This document shows, in pieces, positions 24,800-32,383 of a stretch of 32,563 nt of DNA. Both the position numbers and the translations under genes were made by a program. The DNA is from Gammaproteobacteria bacterium. Lineage in GTDB: Bacteria; Pseudomonadota; Gammaproteobacteria; Ga0077536. Positions within the stretch are counted from its first letter, which is position 1. Every line of letters starts with the position of its first letter. A model generated the notes under the pieces. The model saw only the letters and a program-made list of their open reading frames with translations. It did no database searches and was not told the origin of the DNA. The DNA is taken from the NCBI GenBank assembly GCA_030833185.1, contig JAURHQ010000020.1, positions 1 through 32,563 on the forward strand. The letters run 5' to 3'.

Positions 24800-25402
24800 T
24801 TAATCCGGCTGAATACGTTGCGCTTCAGCGGTCTCTATCGGTGGAAGCCCGGCGGGCAAATCGGCCGCCGACCACCAGTAGCAAGGCAGCGGTCTGGCGC
24901 GTAGCAAGGCTGGAAAAAAGGCATCGACATAACCGGCCGCCGACAGTGCACTGGCGCGCTGCTCGGTCGTGGCGGGCGCGGCGGATTTCAGCAGCACCAG
25001 CCCGCGTGCCGCCTGCGTCTGCGCAACCCAGAGCGCGATGGAATCGGCGCTGACGCGCCAGTCTTCCGGTAAACCCTGCAGCCGGGCTGCGGCGTCGCCT
25101 TCAGGGCACCAGATAGCGCCGCCCGCGTCATCGGCCAGCGCCGCAAGTTTGGCGTTGGCGGTGAGCGCGGGCTGCATCGCGGCGAGTTGGACGCCGAAAA
25201 GCCCCATCGCCTGCACCGCCATGCGATGCGCGTGGGCATCGTCAAAACGCCAGCGGCCCTGCATCTCGCGCACCGTGTCGGCATAGGGCCCGCCCCCCGG
25301 CACGATCAGCCAGCGGCGAGCGCGGTCCTCGGCCAACAGCGACAGCCAGCCGGGCAAGCGGGCGTTGCCCGCCAGGCTACCGCCAATCTTGATGACCCAC
25401 AT
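24800..25402 (-). CDS. Amino-acid-kinase-fold protein, candidate MfnE-like kinase of (methylo)furan cofactor biosynthesis
   Basis: MWVIKIGGSLAGNARLPGWLSLLAEDRARRWLIVPGGGPYADTVRE (amino-acid kinase motifs); internal start; overlaps pabB 3' end; located in the H4MPT cluster. Confidence 0.78.
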   Translation of the reverse strand: MWVIKIGGSLAGNARLPGWLSLLAEDRARRWLIVPGGGPYADTVREMQGRWRFDDAHAHRMAVQAMGLFGVQLAAMQPALTANAKLAALADDAGGAIWCPEGDAAARLQGLPEDWRVSADSIALWVAQTQAARGLVLLKSAAPATTEQRASALSAAGYVDAFFPALLRARPLPCYWWSAADLPAGLPPIETAEAQRIQPD

Positions 25403-26780
25403 GGGCAGGCTCCGCACGCGCAAAGACTTCGAGCATCGCGGACGCCTTGGCCAGCGACTCGGCGTATTCGGATTCAAGCCCCGAGTCCATCACGATTCCG
25501 CCGCCGGCCCAGCAGTACATGCGGCCGCGATGGCAAAGCAGGGTTCTGATCGCGATGTTGGTATCCATACGACCATCCGCCGACAGATAGCCGATGGCCC
25601 CGCAGTACACGCTGCGGCGCTGGGGTTCGAGTTCCTCGATCACTTCCATCGCCCGCAGCTTGGGCGCACCGGTAATCGAGCCGCCGGGGAAGCAGTCGCG
25701 CAACACCGTGAGCGGCGAGACGCCGGCGGCCAGCCGCGCCCGCACCGTGCTGACCAGATGGTGCACCTTGGCAAAACTTTCGACCGCAAAGAGCTTCGGC
25801 ACTTCCACGCTGCCAAGCTCGCTGTGCTTGCCGAGATCGTTGCGCAGCAGGTCAACGATCATCACGTTCTCCGCCCGATCCTTGGGGCTTTGCGCCAGTG
25901 CAGCCGCGAGCCGACGGTCTTCTTCCGGCGTGGCTCCCCGCGGCACCGTGCCCTTGATCGGCCGGGTTTCAACCACGCCGGCATCGATCCCGATGAAGCG
26001 CTCGGGCGAAGAACTGAGCACCGTGCCTTCCGGCAGCGCCAGATAGGCCGAATACGGCGCGGGATTGATTGTGCGCAGACGCAGGTAGGCATCCCAAGGG
26101 TCGCCGCTGACGCTGGCCGAGAAGCGCTGCGTCAGATTGACCTGATACACATCGCCTTCGCGCAGATAGCGTTTGATTTGCCGCCATGACGCGGCGTACT
26201 GCTCAAAGCGGAGTTCGGGGCCGGCCGGCGAGGTCACCTCAAACAGACTGCCGAAGGCCGCCGGCGTCAGCGGGCGCTGCGCCTCCCAGGCCCGTAGCAC
26301 CTTGTCCTCGTCGCAGCTCGCCTGCGGATGAATCAACAACTCGGCAGACTCGGTCTGGTGGTCAACGACGATCGCCCAGCCGTAGATGCCGACCGCCATC
26401 TCCGGCATGTCGATGTCGCGGGCGGCGCGGGCGGGCAGGCGTTCCACGCGCCGCCCCAAATCGTAGGCGAAGTAACCTAGCGCCCCGCCGGTGAAAAACC
26501 CCGCCTCGCCGGTCGGCGGCAGGTGGCTCGCCAGGGTGCGCTCAAGCACCGCGAAAGGGTCGTCGGCGGAAGCCTTGCTGTCGCTCGCGGTGGTGACGGT
26601 GGTGGTGTCGCCCACGGTAACGACGGTGGCCAGCGGGTCGCAGGCGATGAGGTCGTAGCGCCCACCGCTGCAGCCGTCGCGACAGCTGTCGAGAAAGACG
26701 AACCAGGGCCGAGCGGTAAACCGGCCGAGACTGGCGGCGACCGCCCGGCGATAGCTGAGGCCGATGCGTTTCAGGCCCAT
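25377..26780 (-). CDS. pabB: Aminodeoxychorismate synthase component I
   Basis: Chorismate-binding motifs: EGDVYQVNLTQRF, RPIKGTVPRG, ENVMIVDLLRNDLGK, GGSITGAPKLRAMEVIEELE, YCGAIGYLS. Confidence 0.92.
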   Translation of the reverse strand: MGLKRIGLSYRRAVAASLGRFTARPWFVFLDSCRDGCSGGRYDLIACDPLATVVTVGDTTTVTTASDSKASADDPFAVLERTLASHLPPTGEAGFFTGGALGYFAYDLGRRVERLPARAARDIDMPEMAVGIYGWAIVVDHQTESAELLIHPQASCDEDKVLRAWEAQRPLTPAAFGSLFEVTSPAGPELRFEQYAASWRQIKRYLREGDVYQVNLTQRFSASVSGDPWDAYLRLRTINPAPYSAYLALPEGTVLSSSPERFIGIDAGVVETRPIKGTVPRGATPEEDRRLAAALAQSPKDRAENVMIVDLLRNDLGKHSELGSVEVPKLFAVESFAKVHHLVSTVRARLAAGVSPLTVLRDCFPGGSITGAPKLRAMEVIEELEPQRRSVYCGAIGYLSADGRMDTNIAIRTLLCHRGRMYCWAGGGIVMDSGLESEYAESLAKASAMLEVFARAEPAHVGHQDWR

Positions 26781-27823
26781 TGCCGCGCTCCCAGCAAGGC
26801 CATCGCAACCGCGGGCGCATGTTCACTGGCGGTAGCCCGCAGCGCTGCCGGCAAGCCCAGCGCCTCGGCGAAGTCGATATACGGCCAGCCTGCGTCATCC
26901 GCCACCTGCCGGATCAGGAAGCGGCCGATGCCCGCCCCCACGATGAACGCGCGGCGCCCCCTGCGCGGCTGTTCTACGCGCTGAATCGCCTCGCGCAGAC
27001 GCCGGCGCTGCGCCGCTGCCAAATGCATCGCCAGCGCGTGCACGGCCTCCTCGTGGCCAGATGCATCGTCGCCCACCATGCGCGCCAGCCGCGCGGCCGA
27101 CTCGGCCAGCGACTTGCCCCGCCCGTCGGCGCTGGGCTGCAGATCTGCGGTCGGCGGCAAGCTGCCACACAGCCGATGGACGTCCGCCGTCGTCGCAAAG
27201 TATTCCGCCGCCAGTCCCTGCCATTCGCCCCGATAGGGCACGCGCGCCGCGAGCGCCATCACCGGCGTCCGCACCACGCCCTGATAGACCAGTTCGTCAC
27301 TCGTCAGTCGGCGGCGATCGTCGATACCAGCCGTCACCACCTGGCCCTGTTCGATACGGATGAGGTCGGTGGTCGTGCTGCCCATGTCGATCAGGAGCGC
27401 ATCCGGCAGGACGCCCGCGAGCGCGCTGGCGCTGGCGTGCCAGTTCATCGATGCAACCTTTGCCGCCGGCAGCGCGGGCGGTTCAAGCAAGGCCTGGTCG
27501 ACGGCGTAAACCCGGCACTGGCCGCCGGGCACGCGTGCCGCAAACCAGCCGGCGATCGCAGCAACGCCCGCCTGACGGTCGCTAAAGAGGTCGCACATTT
27601 CGCCCGTCATCGTCAGCGCGTGGCGGCAGGCGGCGAGGTCGACGTCTTGCGCCACCGTGGCGACTGCCGCCGCGAGTTGGTCGAGACCCTGCCACAGCGG
27701 ACAAGGCAGCGACCAGACTTGCAGCAGCTCCCCGCTGGCCGAGACCGACGCCGCTTTCAAATGCGCCCCGCCCACGTCCCAGCCGATCACCGCCGCCGAT
27801 GCGCTCACCGCACGACCTGCCAT
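26771..27823 (-). CDS. H4MPT-linked C1 transfer pathway protein (hydantoinase/ASKHA-like; TIGR03123 / MfnF-type family)
   Basis: IGWDVGGAHLKAA, CRHALTMTGEMCDLFSDRQAGV, SMNWHASASALA, LLIDMGSTTTDLIRIEQGQ motifs. Confidence 0.85.
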   Translation of the reverse strand: MAGRAVSASAAVIGWDVGGAHLKAASVSASGELLQVWSLPCPLWQGLDQLAAAVATVAQDVDLAACRHALTMTGEMCDLFSDRQAGVAAIAGWFAARVPGGQCRVYAVDQALLEPPALPAAKVASMNWHASASALAGVLPDALLIDMGSTTTDLIRIEQGQVVTAGIDDRRRLTSDELVYQGVVRTPVMALAARVPYRGEWQGLAAEYFATTADVHRLCGSLPPTADLQPSADGRGKSLAESAARLARMVGDDASGHEEAVHALAMHLAAAQRRRLREAIQRVEQPRRGRRAFIVGAGIGRFLIRQVADDAGWPYIDFAEALGLPAALRATASEHAPAVAMALLGARQWA

Positions 27824-27851
27824 GACAGACGCCGCGCAGGCTTCCTACAAT
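27822..27851 (+). promoter_or_regulatory. Putative sigma70-type promoter for the HisA-like gene
   Basis: ATGACA (27822-27827), 18-bp spacer, TACAAT (27846-27851), 28 bp upstream of the start codon at 27880. Confidence 0.4.
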
Positions 27852-27879
27852 GGGAGCCCTGCCCCTGCTGGAATCTTCG

Positions 27880-28578
27880 ATGCATTGCATCCCCGTACTG
27901 GATCTGTTGAACGGCGTGGTGGTGCGCGGCGTGCGCGGCGAACGCGCGGCCTACCAGCCGCTGGTCTCGACTGTCGTGGAGTCTAGCGCGCCGCTGCGGG
28001 TTGCGGCTGCGTTGCATACGCTTTTCGCCAGTCGCCGGTTCTACATCGCGGATCTGGACGCCATACAGGGGCTGGGCAGCAACGCGACGGTGGTCAGGGC
28101 CTTGGCCGAGCGCTATCCCGACTGCGAGTTCTGGGTCGATGCCGGGCTCACCACGCGTGAGGCCTTCGCGGCCTACTGCCCGGCGCGCAATCTGCGCTGG
28201 GTGCTGGGCAGCGAATCGCTGGCTACGCTTGAGGCCTATCGCGCGCTGGCCGCAGCCGGCCCGCGCGACTTCGTGCTCTCGCTCGACAGCCGCAACGGCG
28301 AGCCGCTGGGTCCTGCCGAGCTCTGGTCAGAACCCACGCTATGGCCCTCCACCCTGATCGCCATGAATCTGGCCCGCGTCGGCGCCAGCGAAGGGCCAGA
28401 TTTCCACCTGCTAGCAGCGCTGCGGGCGCGCTCGCCGGACACCACGCTGGTCGCCGCCGGTGGCACCCGGCACGTCGACGATTTGCACGCGCTGGCGCGC
28501 CTCGGCGTGCAGCAGGTGCTCATCGCGAGCGCGCTGCACGATGGCGCGATCACCCCGCAGGATCTGGCGCAGTGGTGA
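27880..28578 (+). CDS. HisA/HisF-related TIM-barrel protein of H4MPT-linked C1 clusters
   Basis: MHCIPVLDLLNGVVVRGVRGERAAYQPL, FYIADLDAIQG, WVDAGL, VLSLDSRNGE, VAAGGTRHVDDLHALARLGVQQVLIASALHDGAI; internal ATG at 27880 preferred to 27850. Confidence 0.84.
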   Translation: MHCIPVLDLLNGVVVRGVRGERAAYQPLVSTVVESSAPLRVAAALHTLFASRRFYIADLDAIQGLGSNATVVRALAERYPDCEFWVDAGLTTREAFAAYCPARNLRWVLGSESLATLEAYRALAAAGPRDFVLSLDSRNGEPLGPAELWSEPTLWPSTLIAMNLARVGASEGPDFHLLAALRARSPDTTLVAAGGTRHVDDLHALARLGVQQVLIASALHDGAITPQDLAQW

Positions 28579-28826
28579 CTAGCGGCGTGCTGGCCCTGAT
28601 CTGTGCCGGCGCGCTGCTGGCCTTGCCGGCCGCGGCAGATGAAGGCCACGCGGCGGGCTACCGCTGGGCGCTGGCGCAAGGCATCGACGACCCCTACCGC
28701 TGCGCGGGCCAGTCGCCGGCGTTTATTGAGGGCTGTCGCGAAGCGGCACTGGCCACCTGCACGGCAGCATGCGTCGATGCGCAAGGCGGCGACGAGGCAA
28801 GCTGCGAAGCAAGTTGCGACCCGTAA
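28575..28826 (+). CDS. Small probably exported Cys-rich protein (about 83 aa)
   Basis: GTG start at 28575 overlapping the HisA-like TGA (GTGA); hydrophobic signal-like segment then ADEGHAAGYRWALAQGIDDPYRCAGQSPAFIEGCREAALATCTAACVDAQGGDEASCEASCDP. Confidence 0.68.
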   Translation: MTSGVLALICAGALLALPAAADEGHAAGYRWALAQGIDDPYRCAGQSPAFIEGCREAALATCTAACVDAQGGDEASCEASCDP

Positions 28827-28929
28827 GCGCCGGTGCCGTACCTGGCGGTCAGCGCCACGGCTTAAGGATCGGAGCAGATGAACCGGTTTGCCTGAAAAGC
28901 TGGCGGACTGACGCTCGCGCAGCGCCAGG

Positions 28930-28959
28930 CAAAAAAAAAGCCCCACCAGAGGTGGGGCC
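28930..28959 (-). terminator. Rho-independent terminator downstream of fae
   Basis: On the minus strand GCCCCACCTCTGGTGGGGCTTTTTTTTT. Confidence 0.88.
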
Positions 28960-28992
28960 AGCGTTCGTTCAATCGGAGAATCGAGAGGCGAC

Positions 28993-29505
28993 TTATTTGT
29001 GCGCCTGGAACGGATGGTCGACGGCGCCCTTCTGGGCGACGACGGTCGCGGCCTTCGGCTCACGGGCCACGGCGCGCTTGATGGACTCTTTCACCGCCTG
29101 GTAGTTGTAGTCCTGAATCTTCTTGTCGTCTTCGGCCAGCCAGTGGATGAACACACCGACGCAGATGAAGATGTCATCGGCTTCGTTGGCCGGGATGGTG
29201 CCGTCTTCAACGGAATCCGCCACCGCCATCGCCACGCCGCGCTGGGCGGGGCCAAACATCTGCACGGCCTGCTTCGAACCCTTGATGGTCACTTTGTTGA
29301 ACATCACGGTGTTGGGCTTGGTCAGCAGGTTCGGCGCCACCACGGCCAGCAGGCTGCTGAAACCGTCTTTGTTGTTGGTCACGCAGTTGCAGAACGCCGC
29401 TTCCGCCGCGCTGCCACGGGGACCCATGATCAGGTCGATGTGCGCGACTTCGTTACCATCGCCCACGAGGGATTCGCCCACCAAAACTCTGTCGATAACG
29501 GCCAT
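28993..29505 (-). CDS. fae: Formaldehyde-activating enzyme (5,6,7,8-tetrahydromethanopterin hydro-lyase)
   Basis: 170 aa; [93 protein letters not shown]; strong RBS TAGGAG. Confidence 0.97.
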
Positions 29506-29575
29506 GTTTGATCTCCTAAAGGTTACTGGTCATTGCTGCCGGCGTTTTGCGTCCGGCTGTTGTGTAAAGACTCGC

Positions 29576-29627
29576 CCTGAGCGGGTTCCCGTGCCACCGG
29601 GAACCCCTGTTGCGCTGTGCGCTCAGG
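29576..29627. repeat. Nested inverted repeat between the CitG-like gene and fae
   Basis: Outer arms CCTGAGCG (29576-29583)/CGCTCAGG (29620-29627); inner hairpin GGGTTCCCG-TGCCAC-CGGGAACCC (29583-29606). Confidence 0.7.
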
Positions 29628-30495
29628 TCTCGCGTTGTTGCAAGGCCTGCGACAGCAGATGAGCGAACGCGCTGGCGACCGTGAGGTCGGCGCAGGTCCC
29701 GGGGTTATAGCCTCGAGCTTTCAGTTCGCGGTCCAGCGCGTGCAGGGCGCCGCTGAATGCGGCCGGATTCTCGCACGCTTTCCCGGGGCAGGCTACCGCA
29801 GCCGCCTGCGCGCGGACCCCCTCGGCGATCACGTCCCCATACTTGCGCGCGAGGTGGCTATCCGGGCGACTGCTGAGCAGGGCGAGATAGACCGCCTGCA
29901 CGGCCTCACTCAGCCCATCTGCACCCGCGAGCGCCGCGCGCAGGGTCGGCAGGCCCAGTTCAAACACCTCGGCATAGCCGTCGCCGTACTGCTGCGCAAT
30001 GCGGTCGCGACCCGCCGCAAGCGCCATCGCCGTGCCGAGATCTACCGTTGGCGGAGCGTGGACATCGGCCTCGGGCGCGGCGCCCAGTCCGGCGGGCGCG
30101 GCCAGGCGAATGCCGGCAAACGCCCCGACGGCGTCCTCGATATCAAGCGCCGCCAGCCGGGCGCGCAGGCGCGTCCGGAGATCGGTGCCCGGCGCCGGCA
30201 CCAGCGCGGCCTGCGCCAGCGGCGCGGCCAGCAACACGATGCCGAGATTGGTATTGCAGCCCACCGCCTCGCGAGTCGCTGCAATCGCAGCCGCAATCCG
30301 GGCGCCGACCGTCAGACCCGGCGCGGACAAGCAGGGCGCCGACACCGCCGCGCTCCGCAGAAAATCGCGCGCCTCCATGCCGTGCCCCGCTTCCTCGCAG
30401 CTGACATTGCCGGGCTTGAAGGCGATGACGTCGAAGCGGCAGGCCTCGCGATAGGCCTCGGCCACCGCAGCGGCATCGAGCGCCAGCAGGCTCAT
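29623..30495 (-). CDS. CitG/MdcB-like (triphosphoribosyl-dephospho-CoA synthase family) protein of the C1 cluster
   Basis: YREACRFDVIAFKPGNVSCEEAGHGMEARDFLRSA, GCNTNLGIVLLAAPLAQAA, HLARKYGDVIAEGVR, NPGTCADLTVASAFAHLL; internal start at 30495 gives a 4-bp overlap with the upstream gene. Confidence 0.85.
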   Translation of the reverse strand: MSLLALDAAAVAEAYREACRFDVIAFKPGNVSCEEAGHGMEARDFLRSAAVSAPCLSAPGLTVGARIAAAIAATREAVGCNTNLGIVLLAAPLAQAALVPAPGTDLRTRLRARLAALDIEDAVGAFAGIRLAAPAGLGAAPEADVHAPPTVDLGTAMALAAGRDRIAQQYGDGYAEVFELGLPTLRAALAGADGLSEAVQAVYLALLSSRPDSHLARKYGDVIAEGVRAQAAAVACPGKACENPAAFSGALHALDRELKARGYNPGTCADLTVASAFAHLLSQALQQRET

Positions 30496-31403
30496 GCCAA
30501 GGCCAGACGCGCGCAGAAGCCGTCGACGATCGCGGCCGTGACGGCCGGGCCGCAGGCCTGCTGCAAGCCCCACCAGGCCGGCACGCCGTTGACCTCCCCG
30601 ACCCACCACTTGCCGGCCGCGTCCTGCAGCAGGTCGACTCCGGCATAGTCCATCTCCAGCGCCGCCGAGGCCGCCTCGGCCAGTTCACGCAGCGGATTGC
30701 TAAGCGGCACCGCCGCGCAAACCGCGCCGCGCGCGCGGTTGGTGATCCAGTGCTCGCTGGTCCGGCTCATGGCAAAGCAGGCCTCACCACCCACCACCAG
30801 TACCCGGTAGTCGGCATAGGGCAAGGCGGCGCGCTCCACGAAGGTCTGCAGGTAGTAGACGCCATTCACCGGCAGATTGGCGTCGAAGTCGTCCAGCGTG
30901 AACAAGCGCTGCAGGCCCTCGCCCTGCGAGCCAAACAGGGGCTTCAGCACCAGCGAGCCGGCTTCATTCAGCGCCTCGGCCGCCACCGCGCGGGCGGCCG
31001 CGCGGCCTTCCACCACCCAGGTGCGGGGGGTCGGAATGCCGGCGTTGAGCAGCAGAAAACTGGTCAGGCCCTTGTCGACGCTGCGCTCGATTGCCTTGCC
31101 GCGGTTGTAAACCGGGATGCCGGTCAGGTCCAGCGCATGCAGCACGTTGAGGCGCAGGATGACCTCTTCCAGCGTGCCACCGGGGACGCCGCGCACGAAC
31201 GCGCCGGCGGGCGCCGTCTGTTCGAAACCGGGAATGACGATGCGCGGCCGGGCGCCGGCCAAATCGAGCGCGCAGTCTTTCAGCGAGGCGTAGCTGGCCT
31301 GCACCCCGCGCGCCGCCAGGGCCTTGGTCAACACCCGGCCGTGCCAGCCGGGGTCGTCGGTGAAAATCACCGCCCGGCGGTCAGCGCCGCCGAGCGCACT
31401 CAT
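30492..31403 (-). CDS. ATP-grasp ligase (RimK/MptN-like) of the H4MPT cluster
   Basis: 303 aa; [72 protein letters not shown] overlap with mch. Confidence 0.85.
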
Positions 31404-32383
31404 CCGCCGAACGACAGGTCGAGCAAATCTTCGCGCAGCGCGCCGCCGTGGAAGGTCTTGCCGCTCTTCAGCGCGGTGACCGCGCAGGCCGCCGGCGAAA
31501 ACAGCATGGGGTCGACCTTGTAGAAGTCGTAGCCGTATTCCTTGAAGACCTCGCCGAATGGCCGGCCAAAATCGCGCGACGCGCTGGAGGGCAGCTGCGC
31601 GGCGAGCTGGCTGGCCTCGTCGTCGGTCGCGTTCACAAACAGGTGTACGAAGCCGCCAAACAGGATGGCGTCGTTGGTCCGGCCCATCGCCTTCATGAAA
31701 TTGCCGGTCGGCGGCGGCACCGGCGCCGTCCCCGCCCCGTCCACCAGATTGGCCAGCGGAAAATGCAGTTCGTGCACTTTATGCAGCGCGACTTCGAGCA
31801 CGCGCGACACGATTTGCACGCCACCGGCGAGGCTGGTGGTGGGGGTAAGCATCACGGTGAGGTCTTCGGGCCTGATCTGGCAGCGGGTGATGATTTTCTC
31901 GACGACTTCGATCGGCGGCTGCTTGTCGGTTTCCAGCACGATTGCCGTTTTACCCGGCGGATTGCGATTACCCAGTTCTTCAAACAGCGGCTCCTTGCTG
32001 CCCATCGCGCGCGCCGGTCCGGAGCCCATCGCGTAATAGGCGCCCTTGCCTTCGCCGTGGCTCAAGCTCCAGCCCGCGTACTGCGAACCGAGGCAGGCGG
32101 TGACCGGATCGGTGGCGTGAACATCTACCGTCCAGCGCCAGTGCTTGAACGCGACGCCCGCGCGCAGCGTGACGGTGCCCAGACCGCCCATGCAGATTTC
32201 GCCGATCAGGCGCCCGGCTTCCAGTCCGCCCGGCGCGGCGATACCCGCATCCACCACGCGGGTACCGTTGGGCAGCGTGCTGACGCCGACCCGCAGGCGG
32301 TCAGCCTGATCGATGAGCTGTTGAACCAGCGCCTGACTGGCGTGGCTGACGTTGGCGGCACTCGTGATTGCAGATGGACTCAT
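31400..32383 (-). CDS. mch: Methenyltetrahydromethanopterin cyclohydrolase
   Basis: [91 protein letters not shown] upstream of ATG at 32383. Confidence 0.96.

Follow-up and report, generated by a model that had tools for sequence, protein, structure and literature searches.

The closest described systems to the locus reported here are the one-carbon (C1) gene clusters of methylotrophic Proteobacteria such as Methylobacterium extorquens and Methylosinus trichosporium. In Methylosinus trichosporium, published islands carry mch-orf5-orf7-fae-orf17 and fhcCDAB (PMC3615186), and in M. extorquens, gene deletion combined with liquid chromatography-mass spectrometry has established that methylofuran depends on orf5 (MyfB), orfY (MyfA) and orf17, with Orf9, Orf21 and Orf22 listed as homologues of MfnF, MfnE and MfnB, respectively (PMC8141765). 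The distribution of such C1 genes has been reviewed, and clusters also occur in numerous genomes with no known link to methylotrophy, among them those of Burkholderia and Nitrosococcus (PMC5020050). The window analysed here is a stretch of 32,563 nucleotides that makes up an entire contig (C122) of a metagenome-assembled genome (MAG) of an uncultured gammaproteobacterium (4.40 Mb in 743 contigs, 93% complete). The gene identities and synteny set out below were observed directly, and the locus is a further example of this already described system in an uncultured host; with reaction roles taken from characterised relatives, it very probably represents the 'archaeal-like' type of bacterial C1 cluster in an organism that oxidises methanol.

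Eight genes between positions 24800 and 32383, which a previous sequence-only reading had described as an adjacent set of mch, ATP-grasp, CitG-like, fae, HisA-like, TIGR03123-like, pabB and kinase genes with overlaps, were all confirmed at these coordinates, with matches to curated family models far beyond chance. Seven are encoded on the minus strand and orf17 alone on the plus strand. Methenyl-tetrahydromethanopterin (H4MPT) cyclohydrolase is encoded by mch (31400-32383; TIGR03120, 399 bits, E 1e-119, cut-off 228.8), and the contig end cuts the cluster 180 bp upstream of this gene. By 4 bp (31400-31403), mch overlaps orf5/myfB (30492-31403), a RimK-type ATP-grasp gene for a predicted methylofuran polyglutamate ligase (PF08443, 58 bits; MptN, 170 bits; position), which in turn shares 4 bp (30492-30495) with orf7 (29623-30495), encoding a CitG-like protein (PF01874, 217 bits). 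The gene for the formaldehyde-activating enzyme, fae (28993-29505; TIGR03126, 243 bits, over cut-off), is preceded by its own strong ribosome-binding site, AGGAGA. A HisA-fold protein is encoded by orf17 (27880-28578; PF00977, 92 bits; TIGR00734, 111 bits, below cut-off), beside which lie the mfnF/orf9 homologue (26771-27823; TIGR03123, 320 bits, cut-off 244; MfnF, 128 bits), pabB for aminodeoxychorismate synthase component I (25377-26780; TIGR00553, 386 bits, cut-off 328) and an mfnE/orf21-like gene for an amino-acid-kinase-fold protein (24800-25402; PF00696; NF040622, 57.5 bits, cut-off 300; synteny). Here the overlaps are of 10 bp between mfnF and pabB (26771-26780) and of 26 bp between pabB and mfnE (25377-25402). 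The three models named in the sequence-only reading for a check of C1 family membership (TIGR03120, TIGR03126 and TIGR03123) were thus all matched above their cut-offs, and MyfB, MfnF and MfnE were provisionally assigned by family and position.

The remainder of the locus was recovered from two further contigs. Contig C642 of the same MAG begins with the 3' part of fhcA, fhcD and fhcC, the latter two scoring over cut-off, followed by xoxJ, a pseudoazurin gene and xoxF. A conspecific contig (L019), which has 96.6% nucleotide identity to the window over 9.47 kb and 97.5% to the start of C642, spans the gap of about 6.5 kb between C122 and C642 and supplies a short-chain dehydrogenase/reductase (SDR) gene, myfA (ATP-grasp), mtdB, mptG, fhcB and the remainder of fhcA, oriented as SDR-myfA-mtdB-mptG and then divergent fhcBAD. 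In this contig, mtdB lies between mptG and myfA (PF09176, 117 bits) and mptG matched TIGR00144 with 118 bits (cut-off 113.5), and fhcB and the 5' part of fhcA were identified by position and homology in L019 and relatives. The own cluster copy of mtdB falls in the assembly gap. The earlier reading had directed attention to the sequence to the right of the window and was to be withdrawn should the genome lack fhc, mtdB and beta-ribofuranosylaminobenzene 5'-phosphate synthase (mptG); mtdB, mptG, fhc and xoxF were found there by way of L019 and C642, with fhcADC in the genome itself and mtdB and mptG in the conspecific contig. Its proposal that formaldehyde is oxidised via H4MPT is supported by fhcADC and xoxF on C642 together with the conspecific bridge carrying mtdB, mptG and fhcB.

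Some observations weigh against this assignment. For the MfnE, MfnF and MptN-type proteins, scores fall short of the equivalog cut-offs, which derive from archaeal enzymes, with MyfB/Orf5 reaching 170 bits against MptN (NF040720, cut-off 350) and MfnF, above cut-off for TIGR03123, reaching 128 bits against the archaeal MfnF equivalog (NF040623, cut-off 520). Furthermore, a profile search of the own MAG found neither mptG nor mfnB and only a single Mpt_N gene, which is probably the mtdA-type paralogue adjoining fchA. Among 58 related genomes, mptG was present in 23, orf7-type CitG in 24 and mfnB in 22 (7 of 8 congeners included), and where the three did not co-occur, the genome was mostly a fragmented or incomplete MAG. 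Because both mptG and mfnB occur in related genomes, an assembly gap is the best explanation for their absence from the own MAG; a biological loss was rejected, since congeners carry both genes and the conspecific contig carries mptG. In one congener (G003, contig C27; L152 1312-9065), mfnB (orf22) was located away from the main cluster, among pqqB/pqqC/pqqE-like and molybdopterin genes, as read from the sequence.

Comparison of gene order, which had also been proposed, showed the order mfnE-pabB-mfnF / orf17 / fae-orf7-myfB-mch-(myfA)-mtdB-mptG / fhcBADC to be held across the family with small variations. The mfnE-to-mch block was also held in Methylococcaceae, and an mfnE-like gene was syntenic in nearly all relatives examined. 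The window resembles the cluster of M. extorquens and Methylosinus trichosporium in gene set, in the conserved order mch-orf5-orf7-fae-orf17 and, as seen in the conspecific contig, in the linkage of fhc, mtdB and mptG. It differs in that orf17 is on the opposite strand with mfnF-pabB-mfnE directly after it, and in that fhc, xoxF and all of these genes are joined in a single uninterrupted locus. Among annotated records, the cluster is also carried on plasmid pTs485 of Ca. Thiodictyon syntrophicum (L116), with mptG-mtdB-myfA-mch-myfB-orf7-fae, a reversed orf17 and mfnF-pabB-mfnE as in the window; unlike the window and its family, however, the plasmid has an extra MfnD-like ATP-grasp gene between orf17 and mfnF, and no fhc was seen within the 12 kb examined. 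Azoarcus KH32C and Azospirillum have rearranged versions. The cluster is further carried by two MAG records titled Klebsiella pneumoniae, CAMCQE010000012.1 (L016) and CAMAXW010000012.1 (L017); this species label is evidently wrong, since they belong to the window's genus (G003, G004).

By analogy with characterised relatives, XoxF would make formaldehyde, Fae would condense it with dephospho-H4MPT, MtdB would oxidise methylene-H4MPT, and the Mch of the window would hydrolyse methenyl- to formyl-H4MPT, after which FhcABCD would hand the formyl group to methylofuran and free formate. Methylofuran would be built by MfnE, MfnF, Orf17 and MyfB, with MyfA and MfnB encoded elsewhere, and PabB would provide p-aminobenzoate (pABA) for H4MPT via MptG. 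This pABA is a precursor of both H4MPT and folate. For Orf7, the most likely role, put forward tentatively below, would be addition of the alpha-ribofuranosyl group of H4MPT.

The claim in the sequence-only reading that several linked genes lack confirmed bacterial functions no longer holds for myfB, orf17, mfnF and mfnE, which had been tied to methylofuran synthesis in model methylotrophs by 2021 (PMC8141765), but it stands for the chemistry of Orf7 and Orf17. With HisA (phosphoribosylformimino-5-aminoimidazole carboxamide ribotide isomerase), Orf17 has in common the beta-barrel family PF00977 and the catalytic Asp pair, at a score of 61 bits against the HisA equivalog (cut-off 229); TIGR00734 gave no discrimination for Orf17 in control genomes, since HisA cross-matches. 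In an alignment of 29 Orf17 proteins, D8 and D136, which align with the Asp pair D7/D129 of E. coli HisA, were 97-100% conserved, the GG of the phosphate-binding site was kept, and invariant D87, E112 and W155 were added. These three residues are lacking in E. coli HisA, and Orf17 further differs in its linkage to C1 genes and in being needed for methylofuran (PMC8141765). The retention of the HisA acid/base aspartates and the phosphate-site GG suggests for Orf17 a reaction of the isomerase type, with a phosphorylated precursor of the furan moiety as substrate.

No MfnD gene lies between orf17 and mfnF in the window (27823-27880), and none of the genomes in the family to which the window belongs (G001-G035), including ones estimated to be 100% complete, gave a convincing match to an MfnD-like ATP-grasp. 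Class-level relatives do carry such a gene, and in relatives outside the family (G037, G046) it lies between orf17 and mfnF. MfnD is taken to be lost from the whole family, as a lineage-specific detail. Either MyfA or another ligase may substitute for it, or the family may make a tyrosine-type methylofuran. On contig C742 of the own genome (L141 3017-12685), a PF00282 pyridoxal decarboxylase gene stands in one run with genes for a glyoxylate aminotransferase, a hydroxypyruvate/glyoxylate reductase, a peroxiredoxin-like protein and ftfL. This decarboxylase, which is present in most family members, some of them without the C1 cluster, is a possible MfnA and could thus be the tyramine source for methylofuran; with this gene present, the absence of MfnD was not taken to predict the tyrosine-type variant.

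CitG joins a ribosyl group to a sugar hydroxyl in alpha linkage. H4MPT has an alpha-ribofuranosyl-deoxyribitol bond, for which we know of no enzyme assigned as the transferase, and methylofuran has no alpha-ribosyl bond. In the open-licence literature neither a named function for Orf7 nor a transferase assignment was found, and subscription papers may differ in this respect. Our tentative proposal, to be held with some reserve, is that Orf7 is the transferase that adds the alpha-D-ribofuranosyl group to the aminophenyl-deoxyribitol moiety of (dephospho-)H4MPT in bacteria and archaea; it would use CitG-type chemistry to make an alpha-ribosyl bond on a sugar hydroxyl, with phosphoribosyl pyrophosphate or ATP as donor. 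It was also considered that Orf7 works in the methylofuran branch instead, given that methylofuran genes (myfB, orf17, mfnF and mfnE) make up most of its surroundings in the window and that, in the set of 58 related genomes, co-occurrence of CitG with mfnB (20/24) is about as tight as with mptG (21/24). This was judged unlikely, though deserving of serious attention, as the bond formed by CitG chemistry is found in H4MPT but not in methylofuran. A role in the H4MPT branch is also pointed to by the control genomes, in which CitG-type genes track mptG and not mfnB: PF01874 and MptG matched the same four archaea (Methanocaldococcus jannaschii, Methanosarcina acetivorans, Haloferax volcanii and Sulfolobus acidocaldarius), PF01874 additionally matching E. 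coli CitG, whereas MfnB matched the two methanogens only. This test is a weak one, covering four archaea only, with haloarchaea thought to use folate (PMC8305020). The orf7 copy of L019 (9589-10457) is interrupted by a frameshift, which probably reflects a sequencing error, that MAG being of low coverage; in the window, the gene is intact.

With regard to the purpose of the pathway, the sequence-only reading had left the host either oxidising or detoxifying formaldehyde. Detoxification only, in a heterotroph without methylotrophic growth, would fit the occurrence of such clusters in the many genomes not known for methylotrophy, such as those of Burkholderia and Nitrosococcus (PMC5020050), but this was considered improbable here. 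In the own genome and in family members, xoxF-xoxJ adjoin fhc, and the xoxF on C642 carries the lanthanide-type motif HDEWDYDG. Elsewhere in the own genome are ftfL (formate-tetrahydrofolate ligase), an MtdA-like gene adjoining fchA, and glyoxylate aminotransferase and hydroxypyruvate/glyoxylate reductase genes of the serine-cycle type, and in a relative mfnB stands beside apparent pqq genes (read from the sequence, with no hidden Markov model score). Because xoxF, ftfL, fchA and serine-cycle-type genes are present, the pathway probably serves methanol oxidation and not detoxification alone. In the own genome (C642; L011 3957-6620) and five family members (L145-L149), the neighbours of xoxF are xoxJ and the gene for a pseudoazurin-type cupredoxin, and no gene for cytochrome cL lies between the three; in L150 the cupredoxin alone is kept beside xoxF. 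This arrangement suggests the copper protein as the electron acceptor of XoxF; in the open-licence literature, two papers mention both terms, and neither deals with such a pairing according to its title or abstract.

Since Orf7 belongs to PF01874 and public records label its homologues triphosphoribosyl-dephospho-CoA synthase, it could be asked whether orf7 encodes a true citrate-lyase or malonate-decarboxylase prosthetic-group synthase that is present here by chance. Such a role is very unlikely. Although KPGxV, the NT/G motif and PGxxADL of E. coli CitG are partly common to Orf7, its scores against CitG, MdcB and PRK01237 were 39, 30 and 26 bits against cut-offs of 282, 280 and 272, or about one tenth, and its conserved motifs CNTNLG, PDxHxxRK and NPGTxADLT differ from those of E. 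coli CitG. No citrate lyase or malonate decarboxylase genes were found among the orf7 neighbours. The gene is linked to H4MPT genes, and in nearly every locus inspected it is flanked by myfB and fae. A function in citrate or malonate metabolism was rejected on score, motifs and neighbours. The solved protein 3h9p, an archaeal protein from Archaeoglobus, also matched the profile (E 3e-22) and has NPGTxADLT and the PD motif in common with Orf7.

A binning error, or recent acquisition of the cluster as a foreign island, might be feared from a MAG in 743 pieces but is hardly credible given the ordinary chromosomal genes on the contig (by sequence, seryl-tRNA synthetase, FtsK and ribonucleotide reductase), an even GC content of 0.62-0.70, the same gene order in congeners and the same neighbours in the conspecific MAG.

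Two smaller features lie within the cluster. Downstream of orf17, a small Cys-rich open reading frame with a GTG start and a signal-like N terminus (28575-28826, plus strand; no family match) has a counterpart only in the conspecific contig L019 and is probably lineage-specific. Between orf7 and fae, a perfect 9-bp inverted repeat, GGGTTCCCG-6-CGGGAACCC, is located at 29570-29610 and lacks a T run; this hairpin was rejected as a conserved regulator, being perfect in the window and L019 and not retained in more distant relatives.

Taken with its complete H4MPT/methylofuran locus, the analysis would place an uncultured gammaproteobacterial family among the serine-cycle-type, lanthanide-dependent methanol oxidisers. 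It also narrows two enzymatic questions, in that the occurrence of Orf7 follows the pterin branch and a HisA-type acid/base pair is retained in Orf17. Should Orf7 turn out to be this ribosyl transferase, a step long missing from H4MPT biosynthesis would be filled in for both bacteria and methanogens.

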